64,000 bases of DNA, from positions 1 to 64,000 of the forward strand of contig JARGFM010000016.1 in NCBI GenBank assembly GCA_029210725.1. The letters run 5' to 3'. Position 1 is the stretch's first letter. Each line of letters starts with the position of its first letter. A program made the position numbers and the translations under genes. This document shows positions 1,566 through 26,902 of the stretch, piece after piece. The notes beneath the pieces are model-generated. The model saw only the letters and a program-made list of their open reading frames with translations, searched no databases and was not told the DNA's origin. This DNA comes from Bacteroidales bacterium. GTDB taxonomy: Bacteria > Bacteroidota > Bacteroidia > Bacteroidales > GCA-2748055.

Positions 1566-2786
1566 ATGAAAACAACAGCCTTAATTCCGGGGATCGTTAT
1601 AGTGGCCCTGCTGATCGTACAACCGGCATATTCTCAGGAGAACCCCCTTCAAAAGATCAGGAAAGAGAGCCACAGGAAGATTAATAAGAACATTGAGAAG
1701 CTGTTTGATGAAAAGGGAAAAGAGGAAACCCCGCCAGCTCAGCCGCAGCCTGTTTTGGAAGAGCAAGCTCAACAACAGCAGCAGGCTCCCGGTCAGGTAC
1801 AGCAGGCCGGGGAAGAGGCGAAGGAGGATAAGCCGGAACTGACCTGGGCCAAGTATGATTTTGTGCCGGGCGACCGGGTCATTTTTGAAGATAACCTGGA
1901 GGGGGAGGAAAACGGAGAGTTCCCATCCCGCTGGGACCTGATAAGGGGAAATGTGGAGGTCGCCCGGTTTGGAGGAGAGAATGTGATTATGTTCAGGGAC
2001 GGGGCACCCGAAATTGTTCCTTACTTTAAAGAGGCCAGGGAGGACTATCTGCCCGAGGTATTTACCGTGGAATTGGATATCTACTGCGATAATTCGGATT
2101 TTTGTGTCTACCTGTATGACAGAAAGAACCAGAAATCGGGAAGTCCTACCGGATATACAGACCTGGCGGTTGATTCTGAAAGGATGGATTTTGGTCAGTC
2201 AAACAGCGCCCATCCAGATGCCAGAACTTTGCCGGAGAGGAGGTGGATGCATGTATCGATAGCTTATACCAATGGAAAGCTGAAGGCCTATATGGATGAG
2301 ACCCGTCTGATAAACATTCCGCGAATTGATTTTGATCCTAAAGGGATAACTCTTCATACCTATCATGCCAGGAATGACAAACTTTTCTACGTGAAGAACA
2401 TACGGATCGCCGGGGGAGGGGTAAAGTATTACGACCGGGTGATGCAGGATGGCAAGATCATTGCAAACGGAATCCGCTTTGATACAGGAAAATCTACCCT
2501 GAAACCGGAATCCATGGGGGTGATCAATGAGATTTATCGCCTGATGGAACAAAACCCGGAGTTGAAATTCAGTGTGGAGGGACATACCGACAATGTGGGT
2601 GATGATGCCAGCAACCTGAACTTATCGGCCGATCGGGCTGAGCGGGTGATGAAAACCCTGATCGATATGGGGATATCCCCAGACCGGCTCAGCTCAAAGG
2701 GTTTGGGCGAGACTATGCCCATGGACGATAATAATTATCCGGAAGGACGGGCAAATAACCGCAGGGTGGAATTTGTGAAAATTTAA
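1566..2786 (+). CDS. OmpA family outer membrane protein
   Basis: A 406-residue exported protein with a signal peptide (residues 1-23, ending AYSQ) and a Gln/Pro/Glu-rich linker (about 58-92). A beta-sandwich region follows at about 100-285, resembling a LamG/DUF1080-like fold (FEDNLEGEENGEFPSRWD, MHVSIAYTNGKLKAYMD). The C-terminal OmpA peptidoglycan-binding domain spans about 298-406. The OmpA motif is complete: FDTGKSTLKPES, then VEGHTDNVGDDASNLNLS, then LSSKGLGETMP and NNRRVEF. The Asp and Arg that contact diaminopimelate in this family are present. It probably tethers the outer membrane to the wall while presenting the sandwich domain. It stands alone, with a hairpin terminator 36 bp after its stop. 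The middle domain is a looser call than the OmpA domain. Confidence 0.9.
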   Translation: MKTTALIPGIVIVALLIVQPAYSQENPLQKIRKESHRKINKNIEKLFDEKGKEETPPAQPQPVLEEQAQQQQQAPGQVQQAGEEAKEDKPELTWAKYDFVPGDRVIFEDNLEGEENGEFPSRWDLIRGNVEVARFGGENVIMFRDGAPEIVPYFKEAREDYLPEVFTVELDIYCDNSDFCVYLYDRKNQKSGSPTGYTDLAVDSERMDFGQSNSAHPDARTLPERRWMHVSIAYTNGKLKAYMDETRLINIPRIDFDPKGITLHTYHARNDKLFYVKNIRIAGGGVKYYDRVMQDGKIIANGIRFDTGKSTLKPESMGVINEIYRLMEQNPELKFSVEGHTDNVGDDASNLNLSADRAERVMKTLIDMGISPDRLSSKGLGETMPMDDNNYPEGRANNRRVEFVKI

Positions 2787-2821
2787 TTTTTTAGGTTTTA
2801 GGTAGATCCGTGCCTGAATGG

Positions 2822-2860
2822 GGATGGTGCCAAGGCCCGGAGGGGCTGCAGGCACCATCC
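2822..2860 (+). terminator. Hairpin terminator after the OmpA gene
   Basis: A perfect 10-bp inverted repeat (GGATGGTGCC at 2822-2831 and GGCACCATCC at 2851-2860) is followed by TTTATTTAAT. It lies between the convergent OmpA gene and the minus-strand propeller gene, whose stop codon begins at 2862. The T-rich tail is on the + side, so it best serves the OmpA transcript. Confidence 0.75.
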
Positions 2861-2861
2861 T

Positions 2862-4106
2862 TTATTTAATCCGGTAAGCCATCAGGGCATCGCCGTGCCG
2901 GATATACAGCACTCCGTTTGCCACCACGGGATGGGCGAAATGCTGTCCGCTTCCCTCTTTCACATTCATCTGACCGGCCTGTTCCAGTTTTTTTTGTTCA
3001 TAGTTGACCAGGTTGATGGTTCCGTTGTTGCCGTAGATGATAAATTTGTGATCTGTGTATATGATACTCCCGGTGGCCACCTTTAAGGTGTCGGCCACTG
3101 CTCCGCTTTCCGGGTCCAGGGCCACCAGCCTGTTCCCTTTTACGGTAGTAAACAACTTTCCGTCCACAACTACCAGTCCCCCGAAATTATTCAGCACCTG
3201 ATTATTGCGCCATACTTCGCTGATCAGCTCCCCGTTTCCGGAAAGTTCCAGTTTTACAGCCCCCTGTCCGGGTACATCGTTGGCCACGTAGTAGATATGG
3301 CCATCTGAATACACCGGTGTATTGCAGTGTTCTCCATCGTATTCATACCCTTCCAGTTTGTAGGAGGCAAGCACACTGCCGTTGCTCCGGTCCACGATAA
3401 ATAGATGGTGACGGGAGGTGGTCATCAGGATCGGACGCTCATTCAGGTCAATGAGTACGGGGGATCCGTATGCAAAGGTGTCGCGGTGCGCCGACTGTGT
3501 CCAGACAATTTTTCCGGTGAACCTGTCCAGAGCTGCCAGATTGGTGCCGGGGCCACCCGGGAAACAGTACACATGATCTTCATCCACCGCCACGGATTCA
3601 GAATAGCCGAAGTATCCCAGTATTCCATCCAGGTATCCGGTAATATTGACCGACCATAATTCCTTCCCCGCAGTGAGCTCGAAGCAGGAAATCTGACCCT
3701 GGCCCGAAGAGCTGTAAACGCGTTTGCCATAAACGGTGGGAGTAGACCTGTCGCCCGGGTAGGTGCTGGAGAAACCCTCGCCCAGAAACTCTTTTCCGTT
3801 GGGCGACTTCCAGAGTAGCCGGCCTTCCAGATCCAGGGCGAACAGGAAGCTGTTACCCTCCTGTTCGCCGTTGACAAATAGCCCTTCCGCTGTTACCGCA
3901 GGAGCAGCAAAACCTCTGCCCAGTCCCTCAAACACCCAGAGAAGTTCGGGAACTTCTTCCGGCCACTGGTCCAGCAGGTCCGTTTCGTGAAATATGCCAT
4001 CGCGATTGGCTCCCCGCCATTGCGCGCTTTTTTCGATACGCTCCTGCATGCAGCCCTGGCCGGCAAGCAGAGCAATTACCGGAATTAGAATAGCTAAGTT
4101 TTTCAT
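2862..4106 (-). CDS. PQQ-like beta-propeller lipoprotein
   Basis: A 414-residue protein with a lipoprotein signal (LLAGQGC, Cys at about residue 19) and a BamB/PQQ-type beta-propeller. Repeated blades are visible: WRGANRDG at the start, FLFALDLEGRLLWKS, QISCFELTAGKELWSV, LAALDRFTGKIVWT, FIVDRSNGSVLASY, LVALDPESGAVAD. A C-terminal blade reads LYIRHGDALMAY. In this Bacteroidota family the opening W-R-G/P-..R-DG motif marks 'PQQ-binding-like repeat' proteins, which are often associated with carbohydrate or redox functions. Nothing here shows that PQQ is bound. The gene is monocistronic on the minus strand. It could be an outer-membrane assembly or scaffold protein; the propeller call is strong, the role is not. 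Confidence 0.85.
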   Translation of the reverse strand: MKNLAILIPVIALLAGQGCMQERIEKSAQWRGANRDGIFHETDLLDQWPEEVPELLWVFEGLGRGFAAPAVTAEGLFVNGEQEGNSFLFALDLEGRLLWKSPNGKEFLGEGFSSTYPGDRSTPTVYGKRVYSSSGQGQISCFELTAGKELWSVNITGYLDGILGYFGYSESVAVDEDHVYCFPGGPGTNLAALDRFTGKIVWTQSAHRDTFAYGSPVLIDLNERPILMTTSRHHLFIVDRSNGSVLASYKLEGYEYDGEHCNTPVYSDGHIYYVANDVPGQGAVKLELSGNGELISEVWRNNQVLNNFGGLVVVDGKLFTTVKGNRLVALDPESGAVADTLKVATGSIIYTDHKFIIYGNNGTINLVNYEQKKLEQAGQMNVKEGSGQHFAHPVVANGVLYIRHGDALMAYRIK

Positions 4107-8511: not shown

Positions 8512-10074
8512 ATGATAAAGAACTCTACTTTTACAATGCCCAGAGCATTTTTTTCCCCGGCACTCATCTTGTTGTTGTGGATCCTGCTCTCCTTGAACAG
8601 TTATTCACAGACCCATCAGTATTTCTTCTCGGAAGTGGGGCAGACCCGGGAGTATCTCTCGAGTGGTTTTTGCAAAACACAAAACTACTACTGGGACCAG
8701 GGAGTGATGGACCGTGAGGGGAATATCTATTTTGTCTTTGTAGATAATTACAATCTGTATTACCACAGATCTGATGATAATGGGCTTACCTGGACAGAGC
8801 AACAGCTTACAACACCGCAGGATGGAAAGATTTTCACCGCCATGGTGGCCCTTACTCAGGACGATAGCCTGGTGATTACCTATGCGGCTAACCAGGGATT
8901 CTCCAATGGAACGGTTTCCTTTGGCTCAGAGTTTATCTACGACCTTTATGGAGCTGTTCAGAGCAAGGATGCCTGGACCATTACGCCCCTGAAAATGCAT
9001 ACAAATAACAGTGGTCTGCTTCCCTTTGGAACTATTACAACAAAATCGGGCCTGGTCCATGTAATCCTGCATAAATATGGATGGTACAATTATGGAGGAG
9101 AACTGTATGAAGTCATGTATGATCCTGGTGCGAGAACATGGTCAGCCATAGAAACCATCAAGATTTTTAATGATCGCCCCGTGGACAGGGGTACCAACTA
9201 TCTCTGCAAGCTGGCCGAAGGACAAAATGATACCATAATTTGTGTTTATCAACGACATGCTGACACCCAGGGTTTGAACAATATTGAAGTGATTAAGAAG
9301 GGTGCGGGTGGATGGACCGAACCCGAAATAATTCTGGGCAACAGCGACTACTCCACATACAACCGTTTTGATCTGGATTATGACCGTCACGGACATTTCT
9401 ACCTGGGCTACTTTATCCCGTTTGGCCCAGACGGGCCCGAACTCCATATGGCGCACAACTCGACTACCGACTTTACAAAATATGAGATCTTTGCCTCCAC
9501 GGATACCCTCCAGAAGATGAGTATTCATCCTTATCCGGATGCTGAGGCCTATGTATATCTGAATTTTAAGGATTCACTTCCGGAGATTTTAAAGTTAAAT
9601 CAGGAGGGTCTGAACTTTACGAACTACCTTCCGGCTTTCGAAGCAGAGGACTCACTGGATGTGATGCGTTTCCTTTACCAGATAAATATGAAGAATAATT
9701 TTTCCGGCATACCGGGTCTGTTTGCGTTTACCAACCGTTATCAGGGAAGGGATATAAATACGGTGTATTCCTACCCATTGGTTTTCGCAACCATCGATCT
9801 TGCTGCGCCATATGACCCCACAGGAATTGGTCTGGCACCGGAATTCTCTGTTGATATCTACCCCAACCCAGCGGGTGACTATGTAACAATCCGCTTTCCT
9901 GAAGATCATAATCACGGCACCCTGAAGTTATTTGATTTGATGGGGCGCTGCGTATTGCACTATGAAGTGGAGAATAATGCATCAGTGTCTTTGTCAAATC
10001 TGCAAAAGGGGCTCTATCTCTACCAGCTTTCTTTGGAAGGAATAAAGCAACAGGGCAGGCTCATCAGGAAATAA
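8512..10074 (+). CDS. BNR-repeat protein with T9SS sorting domain
   Basis: A 520-residue secreted protein with a signal peptide (hydrophobic LILLLWILLSLNSYSQ, about 14-30). A beta-propeller-like BNR region follows, with an Asp-box SDDNGLTW at about residue 87 and a second strand set (GGWTEPEIIL). The last 70 residues are a type IX secretion sorting domain: VDIYPNPAGDYVTIRF, LFDLMGRCV, LQKGLYLYQL, ending in basic GRLIRK. The ATG at 8512 is preferred over a TTG at 8482, which would add residues before the signal. The protein is probably exported and anchored at the cell surface. The BNR fold suggests glycan binding or sialidase/lyase-like activity, but no catalytic set can be identified. It is divergent from the AraC regulator. 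Confidence 0.85.
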   Translation: MIKNSTFTMPRAFFSPALILLLWILLSLNSYSQTHQYFFSEVGQTREYLSSGFCKTQNYYWDQGVMDREGNIYFVFVDNYNLYYHRSDDNGLTWTEQQLTTPQDGKIFTAMVALTQDDSLVITYAANQGFSNGTVSFGSEFIYDLYGAVQSKDAWTITPLKMHTNNSGLLPFGTITTKSGLVHVILHKYGWYNYGGELYEVMYDPGARTWSAIETIKIFNDRPVDRGTNYLCKLAEGQNDTIICVYQRHADTQGLNNIEVIKKGAGGWTEPEIILGNSDYSTYNRFDLDYDRHGHFYLGYFIPFGPDGPELHMAHNSTTDFTKYEIFASTDTLQKMSIHPYPDAEAYVYLNFKDSLPEILKLNQEGLNFTNYLPAFEAEDSLDVMRFLYQINMKNNFSGIPGLFAFTNRYQGRDINTVYSYPLVFATIDLAAPYDPTGIGLAPEFSVDIYPNPAGDYVTIRFPEDHNHGTLKLFDLMGRCVLHYEVENNASVSLSNLQKGLYLYQLSLEGIKQQGRLIRK

Positions 10075-10164
10075 GAACCCTGATTTTTTCTCAAGGGGAT
10101 TATTCCTATATTTATATACCCGGGGTTCAATCAGGGCTCCGGGCCGGTTATATATATAAAAATC

Positions 10165-22222: not shown

Positions 22223-22661
22223 AAGATCTGTCTTGTGGGATTGAAAGCTTGCAGAGAGTGAAATTAATTGAAAAATGCTTTTATGCACGACCTGAGAGTT
22301 GCCCCAGTGTGAATTCATACTTATTTAGAATAAGTCTTAAGTAATAAATGTATCGATTCAATCTCCGGTTGTTTTCCATTTATAAGCACTACTAAAACAA
22401 GGGGTTTTGCAACATGCTGCCGAATAAATACACACGTGGTGAAATATACAACACATCTCGTAAAATGCAGCAAGAGAGATCATTCACACCCTCTTCTTTC
22501 AGACAGTGTTGAATAATGCCACAGTCCTGCAGGAGTCCGGGTCTTCCATATATTCGCTTAACAAATTGATAAACAGGTATTAAGACTGTTATGGCATGTT
22601 GTTTGGTGCAGGTATTTGAGCCGCAAGGCACCGTTCAATTCAAATTTAAAACTGACAGGCA
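22223..22661. other. Long intergenic region, no supported gene
   Basis: 439 bp between the divergent M28 peptidase and the binding-protein gene. It is AT-richer than its surroundings and probably holds two divergent promoters. A 79-codon minus-strand frame (22392-22631) is Cys-rich and resembles nothing I know; I do not call it. No riboswitch, tRNA or strong hairpin was recognised. Confidence 0.5.
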
Positions 22662-24334
22662 ATGAAAGCTGCAAAAACAAAGAGAATCCTGATGATGATG
22701 TTTTTTTTCGCCATCACATCGGTCCTGGTAGCACAGGAGGAAATAGCAACAACCGGCAATAGTGAACTACAGGTGGTGTGTAGCCCCCAACTTGAAAGTC
22801 TTGCCAAACAGCTGACGAATGATTATATGAAGGAAAACCAGGAGATCCGGATAGAAGTCAGGGCGATTCCCGGAACTGAAGTCCGGGGAGCGCTGAAGGA
22901 GGAAGTATTGCGCTGGTAAACAAAGAATATATGAACGGAAAGGATGAGGAGCAGAGTTTTGCTCTGGTGGTAGGACGCGAGGCTATCATTCCGATCATGA
23001 ATGCCCGGCACCCGCAAAGGGATCTGATTATGAAGCAGGGCATTTCTCCTGAACAGTTCAGAAATATCTATACCGGCCAGGGAACAATGACCTGGGGGGA
23101 GGTACTGGGTAGTACAGATGCCAGTGAGGTACATGTATTTGTGCCCGGTGAAACCACTTCCGCAGCTTACCTCGCTGAATTTTTAGGCAGCGGGTCCGGC
23201 GCATGGAACGGTACAGCGATCATCGAGCCTCATGAGATGCTGAACCGGATCGGAAACGATCCCCAGGCCATTGGATTCTGCAGTCTGGCATCTTTGATGC
23301 AATCGGGGAATGGAGAAGTGGACAGCCGTATCGGACTGGTACCGGTGGATGCTGACGGAGATGGAAGTATAGGAGCCTTTGAGGATATTTACCGCTCCGG
23401 GTCCATGTTGTCCCATGCGATTTTTGTGGGGCGCTTTCCCCGGAGCCTTTACAGCCGTATTTATGCCCTGACGGAAAAACAACCGGGTTCTGCCGCGGAG
23501 ATGAATTTTTTGGAATGGCTGGTTAACGGGGGACAGGAGACCCTGGCTATGGCCGGTATTCTGGAGCTTGGTTTCGGGGAACGCAATTCCCGGATGGAAC
23601 AATTGTCGGGTCATGAGCCCTTAATTGTCAATGTGCCGTCACAATCCTCACCAGCCTTGGTATACCTGGCAGTAGCCGGATTTCTTATCCTGCTGGGGAC
23701 GCTGGTATTTCTGTTGACCGGGATCAGGGGAAGAAAAGGCCTGGCTCCGGAAGAGGGAACTTTTCAGGAATCCGGGTCCAAAGCTTTTCCCGGCGGACTC
23801 TTTTTCCACCGGTCGCATACCTGGGCTTTCATGGAGAAAAGTGGCAGGGTAAGGATTGGAGTCGACGGATTTCTGCCGAAGGTAACCGGACCGGTAACCC
23901 GGGTGGTCATGAAGCAGCCGGGGGAACAAATCAGATGCGGGGAGCACTTTATTACCCTGATCCAGAACGGGAAGCGACTGGAGATCGAAGCCCCTGTATC
24001 TGGCATAATCACCGAGCAGAATGAGGAGCTGCTTCATGATGCATCTCTGCTGAACAGCCATACCTATTCCGAAGGCTGGATCTTGATGGTGGAGCCGCAG
24101 AACTGGATCTCTGAAATGAAGTCCTATTTCATGGGCCCGTCCTATTCCGACTGGCTGCAAAAAGAAGGGGTCAGACTCAAAGATTTCTTTGCCTCAGTCC
24201 TGAAGCCGGAGAAAAATATGGAACCCGGGCTGGTCATGCAGGATGGCGGGGAGATCAAAGAAGGAGTGCTGGAATCCTTCGGCCCTCGAGTTTGGGAGGA
24301 GTTTCAGGAAGGCTTCATTAATCCCAAAAAATAA
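22662..24334 (+). pseudogene. PstS-like binding domain/GcvH-like fusion, frameshifted
   Basis: Two frames form one membrane protein of about 557 residues. The first (22662-22919) has a signal peptide and the start of a PstS-like solute-binding domain (LQVVCSPQLESLAKQL). The second continues it from GSIALVNKEYMNGK through FVPGETTSAAYLAEFLG and GFCSLASLM, then a TM helix (LAVAGFLILLGTLVFLL). It ends in a GcvH/lipoyl-like domain (HTWAFMEKSGRVRIGVDGF, GKRLEIEAPVSG, LLNSHTYSEGWILMVEP). Continuity breaks at about 22899-22902, where one base is missing. The Lys in NGKRLEIEAPVSG is one residue away from the usual lipoyl position, so lipoylation is doubtful. With the next two genes it would make an envelope redox/signalling unit. 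A strong hairpin follows at 24345. Confidence 0.75.
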
Positions 24335-24402: not shown

Positions 24403-25548
24403 ATGGCTATTAACAGACGTAATTTTTTCAGGGCTTTAGGGATCACCGGGGTGGCACTTGGAACAGGCAAAGAGCTGAATGCCGTTCCTGAGAAAGGAGC
24501 TGAAACAGAGTTTTATGGAATTCTTTACGACTCGACCCGTTGTGTGGGATGTCAGAGTTGTGAACTGGCCTGCGTCATGGCTCAAGGTCTTCCTGAACCC
24601 GATCCGGAGGATTATCCCATGCCCGGGACCATACGGAAGACCAATGAAAACAGGCGTACAGTAATCAATGCCTACGAACATGCGGAGCTGGGAGAGATTT
24701 ATGTAAAGAGCCAGTGTATGCACTGCAATACCCCGGCCTGTGCTTCGGCCTGTCTTACTCAGGCCATGCACAAGACCGTGGAAGGGCCTGTGATCTGGCG
24801 CGACCGAAAGTGTATGGGCTGCCGCTATTGCATGGTATCCTGCCCCTTTGATGTTCCAAAATTTGAATATTTCAGTTCCAACCCGGATATCGTGAAATGC
24901 GATATGTGCTTCGACCGCCTGCAGGAAGGCCAGTTGCCGGCATGTGTAAGCGATTGTCCGGCTGAGGCACTTACCTCCGGTACCCGCAGGGAACTGATTG
25001 CTGAAGCACGCCGCCGGATCCATGAGAATCCCGACCTCTATTACGATGGCATCTACGGCGAAGATGAGGCAGGAGGAACGGGATACCTGTACCTGTCGCC
25101 GGTTCACCTGCATAAACTGCTGGAGGAGACCTACCGTTTAATGACCCATTCCATCAAAATAGCCGATATCAGTTTTCTGAGGGATTTCAAAGCAGGAAAC
25201 GACCGCGTGCTCTGTAGTCCGAACCAGATAAAGCAGGCCTGTGTGGCCCTGTTGGTAAATGCTTCAGAGGCCATCCAGTACCGGGGTGAAATTATCATTC
25301 GTACCACAAATCCGGATAAGCAGCATATCACCATCAGTGTGATAGATAATGGTACGGGAATTTCCAAAGAAGATATGCCACATATCTTTGAACCTTTCTT
25401 CTCCACCAAGAGAGATACCAGCGGGATAGGGCTGGGGCTCTCTATCGTGCATGGTATCGTGGAGAACCACAAGGGGCAGATCGAGGTGAAAACTGAGCCC
25501 GGCCAGGGAACAACTATTGAAATTACGCTTTCTCTTACGGAAGTCTAA
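24403..25548 (+). CDS. Chimeric Tat ferredoxin-histidine kinase ORF
   Basis: A 381-residue ORF made of two unrelated pieces. Residues 1-235 are a Tat-exported four-cluster [4Fe-4S] protein of the HybA/DmsB type: NRRNFFRALG signal, then Cys groups CVGCQSCELAC, CMHCNTPACASAC, CMGCRYCMVSC and CDMCFDRLQ...CVSDC, reaching GTGYLYLSPV. Residues 236-381 are the C-terminal half of a sensor kinase: LLEETYRLM, N-box VALLVNASEAI, DNGTGISKEDMPHIFEPFF, GIGLGLSIVHG. The kinase's phospho-accepting His is absent, and the ferredoxin part would be exported while an ATPase domain must stay in the cytoplasm. The join at about 25100-25115 therefore looks like an in-frame deletion that removed the 3' end of one gene, anything between (typically an NrfD-type membrane partner), and the 5' half of a kinase gene. 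An assembly join cannot be excluded. Confidence 0.85.
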   Translation: MAINRRNFFRALGITGVALGTGKELNAVPEKGAETEFYGILYDSTRCVGCQSCELACVMAQGLPEPDPEDYPMPGTIRKTNENRRTVINAYEHAELGEIYVKSQCMHCNTPACASACLTQAMHKTVEGPVIWRDRKCMGCRYCMVSCPFDVPKFEYFSSNPDIVKCDMCFDRLQEGQLPACVSDCPAEALTSGTRRELIAEARRRIHENPDLYYDGIYGEDEAGGTGYLYLSPVHLHKLLEETYRLMTHSIKIADISFLRDFKAGNDRVLCSPNQIKQACVALLVNASEAIQYRGEIIIRTTNPDKQHITISVIDNGTGISKEDMPHIFEPFFSTKRDTSGIGLGLSIVHGIVENHKGQIEVKTEPGQGTTIEITLSLTEV

Positions 25549-25559
25549 AAGATAAAATC

Positions 25560-26897
25560 ATGTCAAACCTAGTATCCATTCTGATAGTCGACGATGAAGA
25601 ATCTGTGAGGGATTCCCTTTATAACTGGTTTATTGATGATGGTTACCATGTCGAATGTGCCGAAAATGCCAAGAAGGCACTATCGCTTCTGAATGAAAAG
25701 GAGTTTGATATTGTGCTTGGTGATATTAAAATGCCGGGGATGGATGGTATGGAAATGCACCGCCGGATCCGGGCTCTTCCACATGTTCCCATTGTGATCA
25801 TTATGACGGCTTTTGCAGCTGTTGATACGGCCGTTCAGGCATTGAAGGAGGGGGCCTTTGATTATGTGACCAAACCTTTTGACCCGGACGATCTTTCTCA
25901 TCTGATCCGCAACGCAGCCACTCAGGTGGCGCTCAGGGCTGAGAATGAAAACCTGAAGGAGCGTGTGACCACCCTGGTGGATGTGGAGGATATTGTAGGG
26001 GAAAGTGAAGTACTGAAGAAAGTGTTGAAGGAGGTGGAAAAGGTGGCGCCGGCCGATTCATCGGTGATCATATTCGGCGAAAGCAATACAGGAAAGGAGC
26101 TGGTAGCCAGGGCCATTCATTCGAATTCCCCCAGGAAGTATTTTCCGTTGATCAGTGTGCACTGTGGAGCTCTTTCTGAAAGCCTTCTGGAAAGTGAACT
26201 TTTCGGACATGAGAAAGGAGCCTTTACAGGGGCGGCCTTCAACCGCAAAGGGCGCTTTGAAATGGCCGACGGAGGAACCATCTTCCTGGATGAAATCGGG
26301 ACCATCTCCTCCAAGATGCAGGTGGAATTGTTGCGGGTCCTTGAATCCAAGACTTTTGTCCGGGTAGGTGGAAATAAGGAGATCGCCTCCGACTTCAGGG
26401 TGATCTGTGCCACCAACCGGGACCTCAAGGAAATGGTTAATAAGGGAACCTTTCGTGAAGATTTGTACTACCGGCTCAATGTGGTGAATATCAAAATTCC
26501 GCCCCTGCGTGACCGGCCCGGAGATATCCCCGGACTGGTGAACCATTTTATCAAGAAGTACTGTACCTCCATGAGCAGGGATATGATCTCCATCGATCCG
26601 GCGGCCCTGAAACACCTCGAATCCTTCGAGTATCCCGGGAATGTCCGTTAACTGGAGAACATGATCGAACGTTCTATTGTTGTGGGAGATGGTAATGTGA
26701 TCAAGCTCAGGGATCTGCCCATGGGCAGGGAGGTGATCAGCTCCTCCATTGAGAGCCTGGAGGACCTGGAGAAGAAGCATATTGCCAAGATCCTGGAGAA
26801 ATACAGCTGGAATATTTCCCGTACGGCCAAAGCCCTGAGCGTGGACCGGGCAACCCTGTATAACAAGATTAAAAAATACAATCTTAATCAGGACTGA
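25560..26897 (+). pseudogene. NtrC-type sigma-54 response regulator, internal stop
   Basis: One continuous frame of about 446 codons, broken by TAA at 26649-26651. Domains in order: receiver (ILIVDDEES, phospho-accepting Asp in VLGDIKMPGMDG); AAA+ sigma-54 activator with Walker A GESNTGKE (consensus GESGTGKE), GAFTGA loop, Walker B GGTIFLDEIG and RDLKEMV; then a Fis-type helix-turn-helix (WNISRTAKALSVDRATLYNKI). The stop falls exactly where the conserved GNVREL motif needs its Glu (GNVR-stop-LEN), consistent with GAA to TAA. The truncated product keeps the ATPase but loses DNA binding. It lies 12 bp after the kinase piece, as expected for its cognate regulator. The domain calls are certain; whether the stop is real is not. 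Confidence 0.85.
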
Positions 26898-26902
26898 TCC
26901 GA

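Follow-up and report, generated by a model that had tools for sequence, protein, structure and literature searches.

An uninterrupted open frame of 381 amino acids, contained in the ORF list of the window (the whole stretch of 64,000 nucleotides analysed here) at 24403-25548 on the forward strand, joins a Tat-exported ferredoxin to part of a histidine kinase. With a probability of about 0.88, this chimera is the scar left where approximately 3.4 kb were deleted in frame, probably recently, from a six-gene operon of Bacteroidales, of which the window retains a decaying remnant. The frame thus belongs to an ordinary decaying gene cluster and does not define a new type of protein.

The N-terminal part of the chimera (residues 1 to ~233) is a HmcB/HybA-like ferredoxin containing 16 cysteines, which form four 4Fe-4S sets, and a Tat-type N-terminus (INRRNFFRALGITGVAL) with the twin-arginine sequence RRNFFRALG; the C-terminal part is the HATPase_c half of a histidine kinase. 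Profile searches located Fer4 domains at residues ~46-194 and HATPase_c at residues 273-379, and detected no HisKA domain in the chimera, which is present in the kinase of the nearest full-length relative, L112 (locus G005:C223). The initial annotation had therefore described the frame accurately by listing a Tat signal, sixteen cysteines, the N, G1 and G2 boxes of a kinase and a missing phospho-accepting histidine. All cluster cysteines and all ATP-binding boxes are retained, and the frame is present as a single copy in its own genome. The best NCBIfam match for residues 4-239 is HmcB (NF045715), with HybA also near, and residues 231-379 match AtoS-type kinases best, but the scores stay below the curated cutoffs (265 versus 420 bits for HmcB and 208.6 versus 263 bits for HybA), which places the chimera outside the HmcB family as defined there.

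HmcB/HybA-type periplasmic four-cluster ferredoxins are partners of membrane quinone-reactive subunits. The chimera shares with them the Tat signal, the 16 cysteines and a similar Fe-S region, and its intact relatives are followed by nrfD. In the window, in contrast, the C-terminus is swapped for kinase sequence and the adjoining NrfD of a ferredoxin/NrfD module, found in the relatives, is missing from both the window and the genome. With AtoS/ZraS-type histidine kinases the chimera has the HATPase_c domain with N, G1, F and G2 boxes in common, and the intact relatives add HAMP and HisKA domains and an adjoining sigma-54 regulator to this likeness. Different from AtoS/ZraS, the window keeps the HATPase_c half only, and the periplasmic sensor region of the intact relatives contains a single CxxCH and a single CX4CH motif.

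Each half of the chimera corresponds to a real gene from a single conserved operon, which puts this likeness far beyond chance. Among 61 genomes searched, residues 1-239 match separate ferredoxin frames of ~290-340 amino acids, while residues ~232-381 match the ends of separate kinase frames of ~560 amino acids. Where the contig was long enough for the distance to be read, both frames are located on the same contig with the kinase several kb downstream (G004, G005, G014, G015, G018, G019, G024 and G026). The gene order PBP-GcvH, ferredoxin, NrfD, GcvH-like protein, kinase and sigma-54 regulator is kept in 69 loci, a count that covers loci from genome contigs and from relatives and includes a few records twice, under both kinds of locus identifier. 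The remaining loci are incomplete at a contig end, or their two GcvH-like matches were assigned in a different order. Across the loci compared, only the window contains ferredoxin and kinase but no NrfD. In none of 71-74 loci is the frame for the ferredoxin, NrfD, the kinase or the second GcvH-like protein interrupted other than by a contig end. In the low-coverage draft genome with locus L121 (G002:C258), nrfD (2540-3290) is split into two adjoining frames, perhaps by a sequencing error or as a further case of decay.

Compared with L112, the window lacks 3,417 bp, corresponding to 1,139 codons and hence to a multiple of three. The alignment runs to window position 25103 (L112 position 8714) and resumes at window position 25099 (L112 position 12127), which is within the range of 25080-25130 initially proposed for the junction. 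Missing are the last ~55 residues of the ferredoxin, NrfD, the second GcvH-like gene and the first ~402 residues of the kinase, including its sensor, HAMP and HisKA regions. The retained ferredoxin part is 87-88% identical to the closest intact relatives, and the retained kinase part is 81% identical to residues 402-552 of the L112 kinase. The junction reads TCGCCGGTTCACC in the window. Because the ferredoxins of relatives contain CCnGT(T/C)CC at this site (CCGGTTCC in L114) and the kinases of L112 and L114 contain GAACCGGTTCACC, a stretch of CCGGT to CCGGTTC was probably common to the two ancestral ends of the deletion. The reading preferred in the initial annotation, namely that two genes of a single operon were joined by a deletion, is thus supported by the loci that keep the complete order, by the missing segment and by the short microhomology at the junction. 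The coordinates of the features are listed in Table 1.

Table 1. Operon remnant in the window and the corresponding intact operon of L112 (G005:C223).
Feature	Source	Coordinates	Strand	Evidence or remark
Possible weak sigma-54-like -24/-12 element (TGGCAT-N5-TTG) upstream of operon	Window	22592-22607	+	Conserved in window, L112 and L122
5' part of frameshifted PBP-GcvH gene (signal peptide, start of phosphate-binding-protein-like domain)	Window	22662-22919	+	85 aa frame
PBP-GcvH frameshift zone	Window	22907-22920	+	Frame 0 ...RGALKEEVLRW* versus other frame GGSIALVNKEYMNGKDEEQSFALVVGREAI
Remainder of PBP-GcvH gene (rest of PBP_like_2, GCV_H)	Window	22931-24334	+	Pfam GCV_H 4.8e-16, PBP_like_2 2.1e-4
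Ferredoxin part of chimera, without its own C-terminus (~55 residues)	Window	24403-25101	+	NCBIfam HmcB 7.4e-79, below 420-bit cutoff
Deletion junction, ~5-7 bp probable microhomology CCGGT(TC)	Window	25099-25105	+	Junction alignment versus L112
3' part of histidine kinase gene (N, G1, F and G2 boxes of HATPase_c)	Window	25102-25548	+	HATPase_c 8.7e-26
Sigma-54 response regulator, cut by TAA at 26649-26651	Window	25560-26651	+	NVR*LENMIER versus NVRELENMIER (L113, L115)
Cut-off remainder of regulator (lid, HTH DNA-binding part)	Window	26652-26898	+	Readable in frame to ...NQD*
PBP-GcvH	L112	6270-7943
Ferredoxin	L112	8014-8886
NrfD	L112	~8903-10108
GcvH-like	L112	10136-10846
Kinase	L112	10918-12576
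Regulator	L112	from 12588

Two further lesions are absent from the initial annotation: the PBP-GcvH gene carries a frameshift and the regulator gene a nonsense codon. The first PBP-GcvH frame aligns with the N-terminus of the 557 amino acid long L112 protein and then leaves the frame, ending at position 22919. The rest of the protein continues in the other frame from GGSIALVNKEY..., which matches KGTIALVNKD...VVGRDAI of L112; the start at 22931 is the first ATG past the frameshift. Upstream of the operon, a stricter sigma-54 pattern was not matched. The regulator shares receiver and AAA+ domains with AtoC/NtrC-type sigma-54 response regulators, but its nonsense codon, which replaces a Glu codon of the relatives, removes the HTH DNA-binding domain, and the frame beyond it is readable to the normal end. 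In addition, the conserved glycine of its Walker A motif is replaced by asparagine (G176N), a change that is private to the window among 74 sequences. Disrupted regulator frames also occur in 4 of the 66 other loci that lie clear of contig ends, so that any one lesion by itself can reflect noise or a faulty assembly. PBP frames score short in 10 of 71 loci as well, in some of which the other GcvH-like gene may have been taken as best match, and the deletion is therefore the strongest of the three lesions. With neither the membrane partner NrfD, nor a sensor, a phospho-accepting histidine or a DNA-binding output, the pathway in the window would be unable to work, and the loss of these parts together with two further broken genes argues for a decaying remnant.

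The best surviving alternative, albeit an improbable one, is an assembly or sequencing artefact, in which 3.4 kb of an operon that is intact in the strain were skipped during assembly and nearby bases were mis-called. It is in line with this that the window originates from a 70-contig draft assembly and that broken regulator frames also occur in some related draft genomes. However, the ~5-7 bp shared by the deletion ends are far below usual assembly k-mers or overlaps, and none of the other contigs of the genome, which is 98.6% complete, contains the missing genes. An NrfD query produced no match in this genome, whereas with the same query the copies of relatives outside the genome from which the query was taken were recovered at values down to 4.8e-233. 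Searching the own genome with the kinase N-terminus returned only weak matches to other kinases, and a GcvH-like protein query returned only the PBP-GcvH gene and one weak match. A second, intact operon copy in the same strain, which had been named as a sign of assembly error, was also not found in the own assembly. Both flanks keep the expected synteny, with PBP-GcvH upstream and the regulator followed by archaemetzincin downstream, and the other genes of the window, 92.5% of which is tiled by open frames, show no obvious breaks. This includes the neighbouring same-strand pairs 38833-39864/39869-40990 and 37598-38110/38139-38576, which are distinct genes with complete domains and not split genes. 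Misassembly, an alternative already raised in the initial annotation, is hence unlikely, because so short an overlap would not mislead an assembler and the lost genes were not found elsewhere in the genome.

A true functional fusion, either as the single-protein redox sensor considered earlier or as a ferredoxin with an acquired ATP-binding domain, has very little in its favor. No stop interrupts the frame at the junction, and the catalytic and cluster motifs are intact, but the fusion occurs in no other genome examined. The Tat signal would export the HATPase half, which contains no HisKA; NrfD as the partner is gone, and the regulator is left without a DNA-binding domain. A conserved ferredoxin-kinase fusion family was likewise rejected, since the search for the same junction in related genomes revealed no fused frame in 60 relatives, 17 other genomes of the genus and 80 loci from genome contigs. 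It is equally hard to believe that the chimera is expressed and kept, for example as a ferredoxin that is exported via Tat and has an altered C-terminus, a new electron-transfer partner and a passive kinase half.

As to the favored deletion, the ancestral operon would have encoded PBP-GcvH, a Tat-exported four-cluster ferredoxin, NrfD, a GcvH-like membrane protein, a haem-motif sensor kinase and an NtrC-type regulator. The loss of ~3.4 kb would have brought kinase codon ~403 directly behind ferredoxin codon ~233. A short, CCGGTTC-like direct repeat most likely served as the site of recombination or slippage, and the shared reading frame across the junction would represent a one-in-three accident. 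If made at all, the chimera would probably be a non-functional or unstable exported protein with its ATPase domain on the wrong side of the membrane.

In the simplest reading of the sequence, the decay is probably recent, because the cysteine ligands and the ATP-binding motifs are still intact. The ferredoxin branch lengths derived from pairwise dN are clock-like (0.040 for the window, 0.036 for L112 and 0.041 for L121). On the window branch, the PBP-GcvH gene and the part from the kinase evolve mildly faster, with synonymous sites near saturation; in the dN/dS comparison for this branch, the synonymous divergence from even the closest relative is ~1 or saturated. Private changes at otherwise invariant sites amount to none in the ferredoxin, one in the kinase part and two in the regulator, which is not clearly above other taxa. 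Relaxed selection is not demonstrable for the chimera, because its ferredoxin is clock-like and has no private changes at such sites.

The protein families involved indicate that the intact operon most likely couples quinone-linked electron transfer by NrfD and the ferredoxin to a sensor kinase and a sigma-54 activator. The conserved CxxCH and CX4CH motifs, present in the periplasmic sensor region of 73 of the 74 intact kinases, suggest that this region may bind haem c covalently. The operon further encodes two GcvH-like proteins, one of which is fused to a phosphate-binding-protein-like domain, and both GcvH-like domains contain a conserved xGKxL motif near the usual place of the lipoyl lysine of GcvH. 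Lipoylation is doubtful, because the motif is seemingly one residue off when counted back from the conserved P-[VLI]-S-G. In six of 18 genomes of the genus (G001, G006, G008, G010, G013 and G017), of which two are 97% complete, neither the ferredoxin nor the kinase of the operon found a strong match, suggesting that the operon was lost repeatedly within the genus.

No description of either the chimera or the intact operon was found in the literature searched. A convincing in-frame domain fusion can come from one deletion in a decaying operon, which calls for caution in automated searches for fusion proteins. More interesting than the chimera is the intact parent operon with its conserved haem-c-like kinase motifs, which in Bacteroidales combines a conserved NrfD/ferredoxin module with two GcvH-like proteins, a haem-motif kinase and a sigma-54 regulator.
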